Positions 54,823 to 58,182 of a stretch of 62,010 nt of DNA are shown here, piece after piece (position 1 is the stretch's first letter; every line of letters begins with the position of its first letter). The position numbers were made by a program, and so were the translations under genes. The notes under the pieces were generated by a model. That model had not been told where the DNA came from and made no database searches. It was given only the letters and a program-made list of their open reading frames with translations. Source of the DNA: Thermoplasmata archaeon (lineage in GTDB: Archaea; Thermoplasmatota; Thermoplasmata; Lutacidiplasmatales; UBA184); contig JAKIVS010000001.1 in assembly GCA_022750435.1 (NCBI GenBank), forward strand, positions 350,895 through 412,904, written 5' to 3'.

Positions 54823-55872
54823 ATGCGGGTCCGGGCGCTCTGGTGGGACAAGGGCCGGCTGGCCCTGATCGACCAGCGCCTCCTCCCCCAGAAGGAGAAG
54901 GTCCTGCGACTGCGGACCGTCGCCGAAGTCGCCCGGGCGATTCGGACCATGCAGGTCCGCGGTGCGCCCGCCATCGGCGTGGCCGCCGGCTTCGGCATGG
55001 CGCTCGCCGCCCAAGAGGGCCGGTCCACTCCCGAGGGGGCGGCCCGAACTCTCCGGGCGACGCGACCGACGGCCTACGACCTGTTCGTCGGGGTCGAGAC
55101 GATGCGGACGGCCTGGACGAACGGGGAGGACGTTCTCGCCGCGGCGGAGGCGTACCGCGAGAAGGTCGTCGAAGAGTGCCGCAGGATCGGACTGGCCGGA
55201 GCGGGGCTCTTTCGCCACCGCCCGAACGTCCTGACCCACTGCAATGCGGGGGCCCTGGCGACCGTGGAGTGGGGGACCGCTCTCGCCCCCCTTCGAGTGG
55301 CCCGCGACCGAGGGGCGAAGCTGTTCGTGTACGTGGACGAGACGCGCCCCCTCCTGCAGGGCGCGCGCCTGACGGCGTGGGAGCTCGCGCGCGAACGGAT
55401 CCCCCACGCCGTCATCGCGGACAATGCGGCGGGCCACTTCCTTCGCACCGGTGCGATCGATGCGGTCATCGTCGGCGCCGACCGGGTCGCGCGCAACGGG
55501 GACTTCGCGAACAAGATCGGGACGTACGAGAAGGCGGTGCTCGCGAAGGAGAACGGCGTCCCGTTCTACGTCGCCGCCCCGTGGTCGACGTTCGATGGGT
55601 CGAAGGCCAACGGCCGTTCGATCCCGGTCGAAGAGCGACACGAGGACGAAGTGCTCGAGCTCGCCGGGCGACGGATCACACCGCGCGCCTCGCGAGCGCG
55701 CAATCCGGCGTTCGACGTCACCCCCGCGCGATACGTGACGGCCTTCGTCACGCCCGACGGCGTTGTCCGTCCTTCGGAGCTTCGGAAGCGACTGCCCCGG
55801 ACCCGACGGCCGGAAGGGGCGGCTCACTTGGGGACGAGGAACGGCGTGAGATCTTCCCGTCGCTCCCGGTAG
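54823..55872 (+). CDS. mtnA: S-methyl-5-thioribose-1-phosphate isomerase MtnA
   Basis: 349 residues from ATG 54823, 7 bp after the PFK gene. eIF2B-like isomerase fold: TMQVRGAPAIGVAAGFGMALAA, catalytic Cys in LTHCNAGALATVEWGTAL, Asp in VIVGADRVARNGDFANKIGTY and PFYVAAPWSTFD. It converts methylthioribose-1-phosphate to methylthioribulose-1-phosphate in methionine salvage. A ribose-1,5-bisphosphate isomerase function is possible in this superfamily, but the motifs fit MtnA better. The last 49 nt are antisense to the glycosyltransferase gene, and the final ~20 residues look unconserved. Confidence 0.92.
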   Translation: MRVRALWWDKGRLALIDQRLLPQKEKVLRLRTVAEVARAIRTMQVRGAPAIGVAAGFGMALAAQEGRSTPEGAARTLRATRPTAYDLFVGVETMRTAWTNGEDVLAAAEAYREKVVEECRRIGLAGAGLFRHRPNVLTHCNAGALATVEWGTALAPLRVARDRGAKLFVYVDETRPLLQGARLTAWELARERIPHAVIADNAAGHFLRTGAIDAVIVGADRVARNGDFANKIGTYEKAVLAKENGVPFYVAAPWSTFDGSKANGRSIPVEERHEDEVLELAGRRITPRASRARNPAFDVTPARYVTAFVTPDGVVRPSELRKRLPRTRRPEGAAHLGTRNGVRSSRRSR

Positions 55873-56768
55873 ACCGCGGAGCGGAGGGCGAGGAACCGGA
55901 TCTCGTCCTGGGTGAGGGGAAGCTTCGGCGGGGGCCCGCCGCCCGAGACTAACTTCCAGTCCCCCGCGAGGAAGCTTTCGAACAGTCCCTCGCGCACGAT
56001 CACGTAGTTGTTCCGGCCCAGCTCCGCGTGGCGGATGGGGGAGAGACGGGCTCCGATCGCGGCCAGGGTGAAGAACGAGCGAAGCGCGAGGCGACGTCCC
56101 ACGGGCTTCGAGCCGTTGAACGCCATCAGGTCCGAGACGGTCGCATGGCTCCCGATGATCTGGTCCCGTTGCACGGCATAGATCCGGCGCAGGCGCGCGA
56201 ACCGACCGCCCCGAATGTACCGCATCTGGCGGGCATACGACCCGAGGCTCGCGGACTGGCTGCTCGCCGCCCCGGTGGGATACGCCACGACGCCGAACCG
56301 GGCGACCACGCGAGAGTACAGGTCGATGTCCTCGCCTCCGATGAGGTCCCGCCAGCTCCCGGCCGCTTCGATCGAGTCCCTCGGGAGGGCGACGATCTCG
56401 CTGAACAGCATCTTGGGAAGGCCGAGGGCGAAGTAGCGAGCGAGGATCGATGCGTACGTCGCGTCGTACACGAGGCTCGTGTCGAAGGGGATGACCCAGC
56501 GGCCCCGGCTCACCTCGAAGGCCAGGCGACGCCCGCGCCCCCGATTCTTTTCCCCCTGCCGGACGACCTTCAGCCGGGGCTCCGCCGCGGCGACCTTCGC
56601 CAGCCATTCGCTCGCGCCGTCGTCGCTCGGGCCATCCACGACGACAATCTCGAACGGTACCTGGAGCGATTCCCCGAGGGCGGTGATGCTCGATAGCGAC
56701 GCTGGGAGCCGGTCGACCGTGTTCAGGTTCGTCGCGCAGAACGATACGGTGGGCAGTACGTCGGGCAC
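55824..56768 (-). CDS. Family 2 glycosyltransferase
   Basis: 314 residues from GTG 56768, chosen because CATTAAGTC on the minus strand (56791-56799) lies 27 bp upstream; a TTG at 56780 is less likely. GT-A fold: TVSFCATNLNTVDRLPASLSSI, PFEIVVVDGPSDDGASEWLAKVA and LKVVRQGEKNRGRGRRLAFEVSRGRWVIPFDTSLVY bind the nucleotide sugar, and GGEDIDLYSRVVARFG holds the ED motif of the catalytic base region. There is no membrane helix. Likely adds a sugar to a glycolipid, glycan or nucleotide precursor; acceptor unknown. Confidence 0.85.
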   Translation of the reverse strand: MPDVLPTVSFCATNLNTVDRLPASLSSITALGESLQVPFEIVVVDGPSDDGASEWLAKVAAAEPRLKVVRQGEKNRGRGRRLAFEVSRGRWVIPFDTSLVYDATYASILARYFALGLPKMLFSEIVALPRDSIEAAGSWRDLIGGEDIDLYSRVVARFGVVAYPTGAASSQSASLGSYARQMRYIRGGRFARLRRIYAVQRDQIIGSHATVSDLMAFNGSKPVGRRLALRSFFTLAAIGARLSPIRHAELGRNNYVIVREGLFESFLAGDWKLVSGGGPPPKLPLTQDEIRFLALRSAVYRERREDLTPFLVPK

Positions 56769-56790
56769 TGCGGTCGCCAACGCCGGTCGG

Positions 56791-57207: not shown

Positions 57208-57308
57208 GCCCTGGTAGTCTAGCGGTCTAGGATCTAAGTCTGTCGAGCTTGGGACTCGGGTTCGAATGCGGGTCGCACGGCGACCCGCCGAAACTCCCGA
57301 CCAGGGCG
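57208..57308 (+). tRNA. tRNA-Asp(GUC) with a 28-nt T-loop intron
   Basis: Acceptor GCCCTGG (57208-57214) pairs with CCAGGGC (57301-57307), discriminator G57308. D-arm GTCT-AGCGGTCTA-GGAT, anticodon stem TAAGT/GCTTG (57235-57239, 57247-57251), loop CTGTCGA with anticodon GTC at 57242-57244. T-stem TCGGG (57256-57260) pairs with CCCGA (57296-57300). The T-loop is split: TTCGAA (57261-57266) is followed by a 28-nt insert (57267-57294) before T57295, so the spliced loop is the canonical TTCGAAT. The mature tRNA is 73 nt, CCA not encoded. G73 and GUC are Asp identity elements. AGATTCATG at about 57172-57180 could be the promoter. Confidence 0.88.
57267..57294 (+). other. tRNA-Asp intron at position 59/60 within a bulge-helix-bulge
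   Basis: The precursor folds into a textbook BHB. Outer helix is the T-stem TCGGG/CCCGA, central 4-bp helix TTCG (57261-57264)/CGAA (57289-57292), 3-nt bulges AAT (57265-57267) and ACT (57293-57295), inner 8-bp helix GCGGGTCG (57268-57275)/CGACCCGC (57281-57288), loop CACGG. Cuts between the second and third bulge nucleotides give exons that rejoin to a canonical T-loop. Confidence 0.85.
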
Positions 57309-57369: not shown

Positions 57370-58182
57370 GTGGCCGAGGCCCCCGAGCGACCGGAGGCTC
57401 CGGCCCGCTCGATTTCGTCGGTCGTTGCCGGCGCGCTCCGCGACGCCCAGGAGCGCCGTCTTCTCGAACGGGTGAAGTCCTCGCCCGTCCCCCGCCACCT
57501 CGCCATCATCATGGACGGCAACCGTCGCTTCGCCGCCGGCCACGGGATGATGATCTCGGAGGGCCACGTTCGGGGGAAGGACAAGCTCGAACAGCTCCTC
57601 GACTGGTGTCTGGAGGTCGGGGTCCGCATCCTGACCGTCTACGCCCTTTCGACCGAGAACCTGGAGCGCCCGAAGGAGGAGCTCGACGCCCTGATGGACC
57701 TGTTCGCGGGGGCATTCCTCGACGTGGTCACCGACCCGCGGGTCCACCGGCACCACATCCGGGTCCGGGCGATCGGGAACCTTCAGCTGCTTCGTCCCGA
57801 TGTCCAGGAGTCCATCCGCCTCGCCGAGGCGGCGACGAAGGACTACACGGAGTACCAATACAACGTCGCGATCGCGTACGGTGGCCGTGAGGAGATCCTC
57901 CTAGCCATCCGGGCGATTGCCCAGGAGGTGGCGAAAGGGGCCGTTCGGCCGGACCAGATCGACGCCCAGATGGTCTCCGCCCGACTGTATACCGCCGACC
58001 TCCCCGACCCGGACCTCGTGTTCCGGACCAGCGGGGAGGAACGGATCTCGAACTTTCTCCTCTGGCAATCGGCGTACGCGGAGCTGTACTTCGCGGACGT
58101 ACTCTGGCCGGGACTCGCCAAGATCGACTTCCTGAAGGCGATCCAGGCGTTCCAAAATCGCGGACGTCGGTACGGCGTCTAA
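57370..58182 (+). CDS. uppS: cis-Prenyltransferase UppS (undecaprenyl/polyprenyl diphosphate synthase)
   Basis: 270 residues from GTG 57370. It adds isopentenyl units in cis to make the long-chain polyprenyl diphosphate that becomes the lipid carrier for glycan and S-layer assembly. The catalytic Asp sits in HLAIIMDGNRRFA, followed by GKDKLEQLLDWCLEVGVRILTVYALSTENLERP, YNVAIAYGGREEI, DLPDPDLVFRTSGEERISNFLLWQSAYAELYF and the FQNRGRRYG end. Membrane-associated, cytosolic side. Located just after tRNA-Asp; its promoter core sits within an inverted repeat. Confidence 0.96.
   Translation: MAEAPERPEAPARSISSVVAGALRDAQERRLLERVKSSPVPRHLAIIMDGNRRFAAGHGMMISEGHVRGKDKLEQLLDWCLEVGVRILTVYALSTENLERPKEELDALMDLFAGAFLDVVTDPRVHRHHIRVRAIGNLQLLRPDVQESIRLAEAATKDYTEYQYNVAIAYGGREEILLAIRAIAQEVAKGAVRPDQIDAQMVSARLYTADLPDPDLVFRTSGEERISNFLLWQSAYAELYFADVLWPGLAKIDFLKAIQAFQNRGRRYGV

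Follow-up and report, generated by a model that had tools for sequence, protein, structure and literature searches.

A tRNA-Asp(GUC) gene with a predicted T-loop intron at position 59/60, and related introns in Thermoplasmata (Ca. Lutacidiplasmatales)

The tRNA-Asp gene and its insert

The window, a stretch of 62,010 nucleotides from the genome of a Thermoplasmata archaeon, contains a tRNA-Asp(GUC) gene at 57208–57308. It is followed on the same strand by a cis-prenyltransferase gene (57370–58182, +; PF01255) and preceded on the opposite strand by a glycosyltransferase gene (55824–56780, −; PF00535). The tRNA gene is interrupted in its T-loop by 28 nucleotides, and its parts are arranged as follows.

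57208–57266, +: 5′ exon of tRNA-Asp(GUC), positions 1–59 (sequence; near-invariant across 45 loci of the genus)
57242–57244, +: anticodon GTC (sequence)
57256–57260, +: 5′ strand of the T-stem, which is also the outer helix of the bulge-helix-bulge; partner 57296–57300 (sequence and RNAfold)
57261–57264, +: 5′ strand of the central helix, TTCG (positions 54–57); partner CGAA at 57289–57292 (RNAfold)
57265–57267, +: 5′ bulge, A58 A59 / T; predicted cut after 57266 (sequence and RNAfold)
57267–57294, +: 28-nt intron at 59/60 (sequence and RNAfold)
57268–57288, +: inner helix (57268–57275/57281–57288) and its loop (RNAfold)
57293–57295, +: 3′ bulge, A C / T60; predicted cut after 57294 (RNAfold)
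57295–57308, +: 3′ exon with T60, the 3′ strands of the T-stem and acceptor stem, and discriminator G73 (sequence)

The acceptor strands (57208–57214 and 57301–57307) pair at 7/7 positions, the D-stem is present, and the anticodon stem has 5 bp including G-U pairs. The T-stem strands (57256–57260 and 57296–57300) pair at 5/5 positions, only across the 28-nt insert. Every element named in the initial annotation, which held that the arms pair only with 57267–57294 removed, is present in the sequence. RNAfold places a 4-bp central helix between two 3-nt bulges, AAT (57265–57267) and ACT (57293–57295), and adds a ninth pair to the 8-bp inner helix. The minimum free energy (MFE) structure of 57256–57300 is the exact hBHBh′ structure at −27.1 kcal/mol (z −3.84, a value that none of 200 shuffles matches), in agreement with the exact bulge-helix-bulge (BHB) geometry that had been claimed. 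When the whole transcript (102 nt) is folded, the MFE structure retains the two helices of the BHB, central and inner, and a T-stem of 4 bp, but the D and anticodon arms are not formed. Cloverleaf arms are commonly missing from MFE folds of unmodified tRNA. As judged from sequence and predicted folding, the reading of 57208–57308 as a tRNA-Asp(GUC) gene with a 28-nt 59/60 intron in a strict BHB, presumably removed by splicing, is confirmed.

It had also been suggested that such a gene is easily missed by ordinary scans, and this holds for two of them. ARAGORN calls no tRNA across the window, and calls tRNA-Asp(gtc) once the 28-nt insert is deleted (0 to 1 tRNA). An Rfam search of 55–60 kb at E ≤ 1 does not list the gene, and in the genome-wide search the Rfam tRNA model sees it as a 15.2-bit fragment, under the cut-off of 29. 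A covariance model of the T-arm plus BHB, termed R1 and built from 25 sequences, gives the Asp locus, a member of its training set, 49.2 bits, while the runner-up among 35 window matches obtained with filters off has 13.0. A scan of the window for uninterrupted T-loop motifs yields 9 matches against 10.4 expected.

Orthologues and the wider set of T-loop introns

Orthologues were sought by DNA search in 101 genomes, comprising the window's own and 100 relatives. Full-length tRNA-Asp with the insert is found in 44 of 61 genomes of the genus (45 loci), including 18/18 of those at least 90% complete; none of the 17 genus genomes from which it is absent reaches that completeness. The exons are near-invariant over the 45 loci, and the intron bodies diverge. 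No intronless Asp gene of the genus is among the matches listed, down to E about 0.16, and short BLAST matches in genus genomes with no full-length gene were taken for GC-rich noise. No second tRNA-Asp was found in the window's genome, the assembly of which is 84% complete. In one relative (G044; assembly with 8% contamination), two tRNA-Asp genes with different T-loop introns (L033, L075) were observed.

Outside the genus, uninterrupted forms of the gene occur. Two genomes of sister family f2 (G061 and G063) carry tRNA-Asp with a T-arm identical to the predicted spliced form, TTCGAATCCCGA, and the junction-spanning T-arm sequence is present in joined form in intronless orthologues L077 and L078. 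These insert-free genes match the spliced T-arm instead of contradicting the reading, and they agree with the earlier proposal that splicing restores TTCGAAT. A genome of family f3 in the same order (G062) has a short T-loop intron and a second insert just behind the anticodon. Among 21 further loci of the class (L080–L100, not all Asp), the T-loop is uninterrupted in 20, and the Gly-CCC gene of G087 (L099) has an intron. Within the genus, the Gln-CUG gene of G022 (L079) has a T-loop intron too.

The Asp gene, which the initial annotation considered by itself, is not a singular oddity. In the window's genome R1 finds 13 matches of at least 35.8 bits (ten in its training set and three not), with the next at 15.9. 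A chance hairpin was rejected as an explanation on the wide score gaps in the window and genome scans. Ten more genomes of the window's family (f1), picked for completeness and to include three further genera, gave 120 matches at E ≤ 0.01. Across these eleven genomes of four genera, 132 of 133 matches fall within tRNAs whose acceptor and T-stem pair at 7/7 and 5/5 positions; the exception lies at a contig start and is unreadable. The genes represent 14 tRNA types: Ala-GGC, Asp-GUC, Glu-CUC, Gly-UCC, His-GUG, Lys-UUU, Leu-UAG, Asn-GUU, Gln-CUG, Arg-UCG, Arg-UCU, Ser-CGA, Ser-GCU and Ser-GGA. Six anticodons with C33 among the 132 genes were assigned by hand. C33 replaces the near-universal U of the anticodon loop in L336, L410, L427, L282 and L386 (Gly-UCC) and in L401 (Leu-UAG).

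Asp, Gly-UCC, Gln-CUG and Arg-UCU are matched in all eleven genomes, Glu-CUC in the 8 that belong to the window's genus and in no others, Ser-CGA in only 5/11 and Asn-GUU in 7/11. All 132 introns are flanked by A59 and T60, which puts the predicted splice site between nucleotides 59 and 60; their length is 23–41 nt, and the first base of the 3′ bulge is A in 109/132. ARAGORN finds 116 of the 132 genes once they are spliced in silico (115 with the expected anticodon), 34 unspliced, and 0 after same-length deletions elsewhere. The 16 genes that it misses after T-loop splicing all belong to Leu-UAG and Lys-UUU, two types with 18 genes in total, and have an additional insert in the D-arm.

By hand tally, the window's genome has about 39 recognisable tRNA genes, of which about 19 contain introns. 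Thirteen have T-loop introns, two of these also have a D-arm insert, two more have a D-arm insert alone (initiator Met and Arg-GCG), and four have anticodon-loop inserts (Met, Tyr, Leu-UAA and Trp). This amounts to about 21 introns in 39 genes, or 0.54 per gene; PMC8450103 gives 0.21 introns per tRNA gene for archaea and 0.84 for Thermoproteales. D-arm inserts were observed in L269 (Lys-UUU), L265 (Leu-UAG), L132 (initiator Met) and L029 (Arg-GCG), and in further Lys-UUU genes (L440, L446, L443, L466 and L467). They are probably second introns, which in Lys-UUU and Leu-UAG share a gene with the T-loop intron. The tRNA-Trp gene (L134) has a long intron in the anticodon loop, with putative C/D-box-like motifs.

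About one third of the tRNA genes in this genome (13 of about 39) go undetected, or are cut short, in searches with tools that lack a model of T-loop introns; the Rfam tRNA model scores above its cut-off for 3 of the 13. tRNAscan-SE version 2 in archaeal mode is described as searching for such introns (PMC8450103). The published genomes of the order were scanned with it, and one of them is reported to have tRNAs for all 20 amino acids (PMC9287336).

At E ≤ 0.001, 89 of the 101 genomes are matched: 61/61 in the genus with 3–14 matches each, and 28/40 outside it with 1–6 each. A phylum-wide sample of 389 genomes, scanned with stricter filters, has 88 matched genomes, in which 24 listed f1 genomes have 5–12 matches each and the other 64 have 1–4. 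On this distribution, a small number of T-loop introns are probably ancient within the class; f1 has many more. Outside f1, 30 of 72 matches were parsed, and Arg-CCG (8), Lys-UUU (7) and Arg-UCU (4) predominate among them. One locus called as Met-CAT (L439) has the same sequence as L216, which was parsed as Arg-UCU with a second intron. T-loop introns of merely 13–15 nt, near the minimum able to form the motif, were observed in distant relatives (L454, L463, L464, L455 and L076).

An exact pattern scan of named species genomes returned at least 118 stretches. Of the 80 listed, 75 lie within a tRNA and five do not (L148, L206, L145, L198 and L210); the other 38 were examined for the pattern and the Asp gene alone. 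The titles of 77 of the 80 are archaeal. Two bacterial titles (Kiritimatiellae and Arthrobacter; L148 and L206) belong to matches outside tRNAs, which are taken as chance matches, and L143, from a record with the title "bacterium", contains the tRNA-Asp of the family. Archaeal matches listed include Methanomassiliicoccales, with Arg-UCU. Asp matches come from isolates named AcS, SubAcS, JOPF and others, and SubAcS10-22 is an entry in the Ca. Lutacidiplasmatales genome table of PMC9287336. The word "intron" does not occur in the main text of that paper, and nothing on T-loop introns in Lutacidiplasmatales or Thermoplasmatota turned up in the open-access literature searched.

Splicing enzymes and the central helix

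The endonuclease encoded in the window's genome, outside the window, differs from the homotetrameric type that had been presumed. EndA (L136) has 353 amino acids and matches PF02778 twice and PF01974 twice, which corresponds to two N and two C domains; it is of the tandem-repeat α′2 (homodimer) type, and the dimer is predicted. An alignment read by hand shows that Y291, H299, R323 and K330 are kept; R323 and K330 align with R280 and K287 of A. fulgidus, whose Tyr and His are conserved as well. The best solved relatives are 5x89, 1r0v/2gjw of A. fulgidus and 1a79 of M. jannaschii. No ASL/CSL loop is present in EndA between YGS and LSL, where a 13-residue segment has the A. fulgidus length; the same is seen by eye in the listed f1 genomes, with 2 of 31 loci unreadable. 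The position of the loop is marked in the alignment by 3p1y, a lengthened A. fulgidus chain that is presumably a chimera with an inserted loop. RtcB is also encoded (E 1.5e-171).

Accounts of the substrate range of α′2 enzymes differ. According to PMC12397907 they lack the loop and may be limited to canonical BHB motifs, and α′2 EndA lacking the relaxing loop is described as so limited in PMC4033280, while PMC8707768 describes homodimeric and heterotetrameric forms as also able to cleave BHL-like motifs. In this lineage the EndA is of a type described as strict, yet most of the T-loop introns are not strict BHB.

The strict BHB assigned to the Asp copy stands, but it does not extend to the set. 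Four standard central pairs occur in 52/132 family introns, and in only 40/132 together with two inner pairs. A looser test, with three central pairs and the first two inner pairs, is passed by 107/132. When the inner helix of Asp genes is tested with no gaps, 17/63 are strict; set against the 107/132 of the looser test, this places the small asymmetries further inside the inner helix. Inner pairs i2:−7 and i3:−8 are both held in 112/132, compared to a mean of 34.8 and a maximum of 47 in 200 shuffles. Positions 54–57 are all paired in 63/63 distinct intron-bearing Asp genes, 45 of them from the DNA search and 18 from a pattern that itself includes the 54–57 motif. The MFE folds of the T-arm modules contain the central helix in only 34/132 (four pairs in 32, three in 2), and therefore the BHB of most relatives rests on alignment and not on energy.

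The deviation is concentrated in the pair formed by position 57 and the opposite intron base (57/−6). In the 55 introns with G57 the opposite base is C in 53, and among the 77 with A57 it is G (70), T (4), A (2) or C (1) (Fisher p 2.7e-33 for C against not-C, a value that ignores relatedness and is not readable as a probability). The switch also occurs within isotypes. Two genomes have A57 in Asp, both with G opposite, and one has A57 in Gly-UCC, again with G; one Arg-UCU gene has G57 with C, and two Asn genes have A57, one with T and one with G. Outside f1, A57 faces T in 4/6 and G in 2/6, and both G cases are in sister family f2.

The inner helix begins directly after the third bulge base (i2:−7) in 73/77 A57 introns, which favours an A-G pair in a helix of canonical spacing. 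The helix might nonetheless slip to UUC/GGA in these introns, with bulges of 4 nt. A simple energetic reading of 57/−6 is disfavoured by the presence of the central helix in only 34/132 MFE folds. One tentative proposal, which is less likely than not, is that the loopless α′2 EndA processes a class of T-loop introns with a non-canonical central helix, in which A57-G is recognised, or UUC/GGA slips, or A57 is modified before splicing. Archaeal tRNA A57 is often converted to m1A and then m1I (PMC7668247), a conversion that would block Watson-Crick pairing with U. If true, modification of A57 would connect T-arm modification with splicing order.

Descent of the introns and relation to known systems

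It is very probable that the window carries a working tRNA-Asp gene with a 59/60 intron spliced by EndA and RtcB, and that this intron belongs to a largely ancestral family set. In the transcript, the T-stem, T-loop and 28-nt insert would fold into the BHB, homodimeric EndA would cut after A59 (57266) and before T60 (57295), and RtcB would join the exons into the standard T-loop TTCGAAT. The Asp gene would be one of 13–14 tRNA genes of the family with a small hairpin intron at one site. The set was probably largely present before the sampled f1 genera split and then inherited gene by gene, with a short 3′-end motif and pairing kept in the introns and nothing else. A possible explanation for the choice of site is that the T-loop TTCRA is near-identical in all tRNAs, so that a hairpin ending in about CGRAAC could build the central helix with almost any of them.

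In an alternative history, the introns are spliced but were spread by recent copying between the tRNAs of one genome, a process reported for Thermoproteales. Intron bodies were compared by global alignment with the first base and last six left out. The mean score is 0.151 for the same isotype in different genomes (n 576), 0.063 for different isotypes in the same genome (n 745) and 0.056 where neither is shared (n 7325). The greater likeness of same-isotype bodies favours inheritance by isotype over recent copying in f1, and recent transposition inside f1 was rejected on the nearness of the same-genome value to background. A different picture comes from genes in or close to family f17: the introns of Glu-UUC (L190, CP070751.1), Gly-CCC (L099) and Arg-UCU (L171) are alike by eye, which suggests copying between tRNAs there. 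As an account of the f1 set, recent copying is improbable.

It is still less probable that the mature tRNA keeps the insert and has an expanded T-loop. The arm in question docks on the D-loop, and its own loop would lengthen from 7 to 35 nt; the Asp gene keeps every other tRNA feature. Two sister-family genomes show the exact spliced form, cleavage-type geometry is kept at both ends of the insert, and EndA and RtcB are encoded. A decayed tRNA gene broken by a hairpin insertion, which would fit the failure of ARAGORN and Rfam to recognise the gene with its insert in place, is very improbable, given exons that hardly vary over 45 loci from 44 genomes, no match to another Asp tRNA in the 84% complete assembly, and use of the same site in 14 tRNA types.

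Introns at 59/60 are already known as a kind, and were described in Crenarchaeota by Sugahara 2008 and Fujishima 2010, as cited in PMC4090602. What is new is the high number of T-loop introns throughout this lineage of Thermoplasmata (Ca. Lutacidiplasmatales), together with the coupled 57/−6 pattern. Acid-soil Thermoplasmata join Thermoproteales, Thaumarchaeota and Asgard archaea as groups with many non-canonical tRNA introns, here concentrated at one site. The set is well suited to studies of the spread and excision of tRNA introns. With an enzyme of the strict type, a single site and 14 tRNAs in dozens of related genomes, the proposed coevolution of EndA loops and intron structure becomes directly testable. 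Disruption of tRNA genes has been proposed to protect them from integrating elements (PMC4390854, citing Randau and Soll).

A close likeness is to the 59/60 introns of Thermoproteales and other Crenarchaeota, which share the site, removal through a BHB and occurrence in many tRNAs per genome (PMC4090602). The introns of those groups occupy many positions and include very similar copies across tRNAs (PMC4090602), whereas here one site dominates and descent follows isotype; very similar introns across the tRNAs of one genome were not found in f1 (0.063 vs 0.056). The crenarchaeal enzyme is mostly (αβ)2 (PMC4033280) with a Crenarchaea-specific loop (PMC12397907), in contrast to the α′2 type with no loop. 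The tRNAs of Atabeyarchaeia and Freyarchaeia (Asgard) likewise have introns at non-canonical positions and in high load (PMC11291895), but 92–95% of their genes have introns and more than half have several, compared to about 19/39 here, 13 of them at one site. On the enzyme side, Archaeoglobus fulgidus EndA (1r0v, 2gjw) and the Ferroplasma homodimer (PMC8707768) are of the same tandem-repeat homodimer type. The A. fulgidus enzyme also shares the Tyr/His/Lys triad, the Arg280 equivalent and the lack of a loop at the ASL/CSL place; it is described as limited to canonical BHB, whereas many of the substrates predicted here deviate in the central helix.
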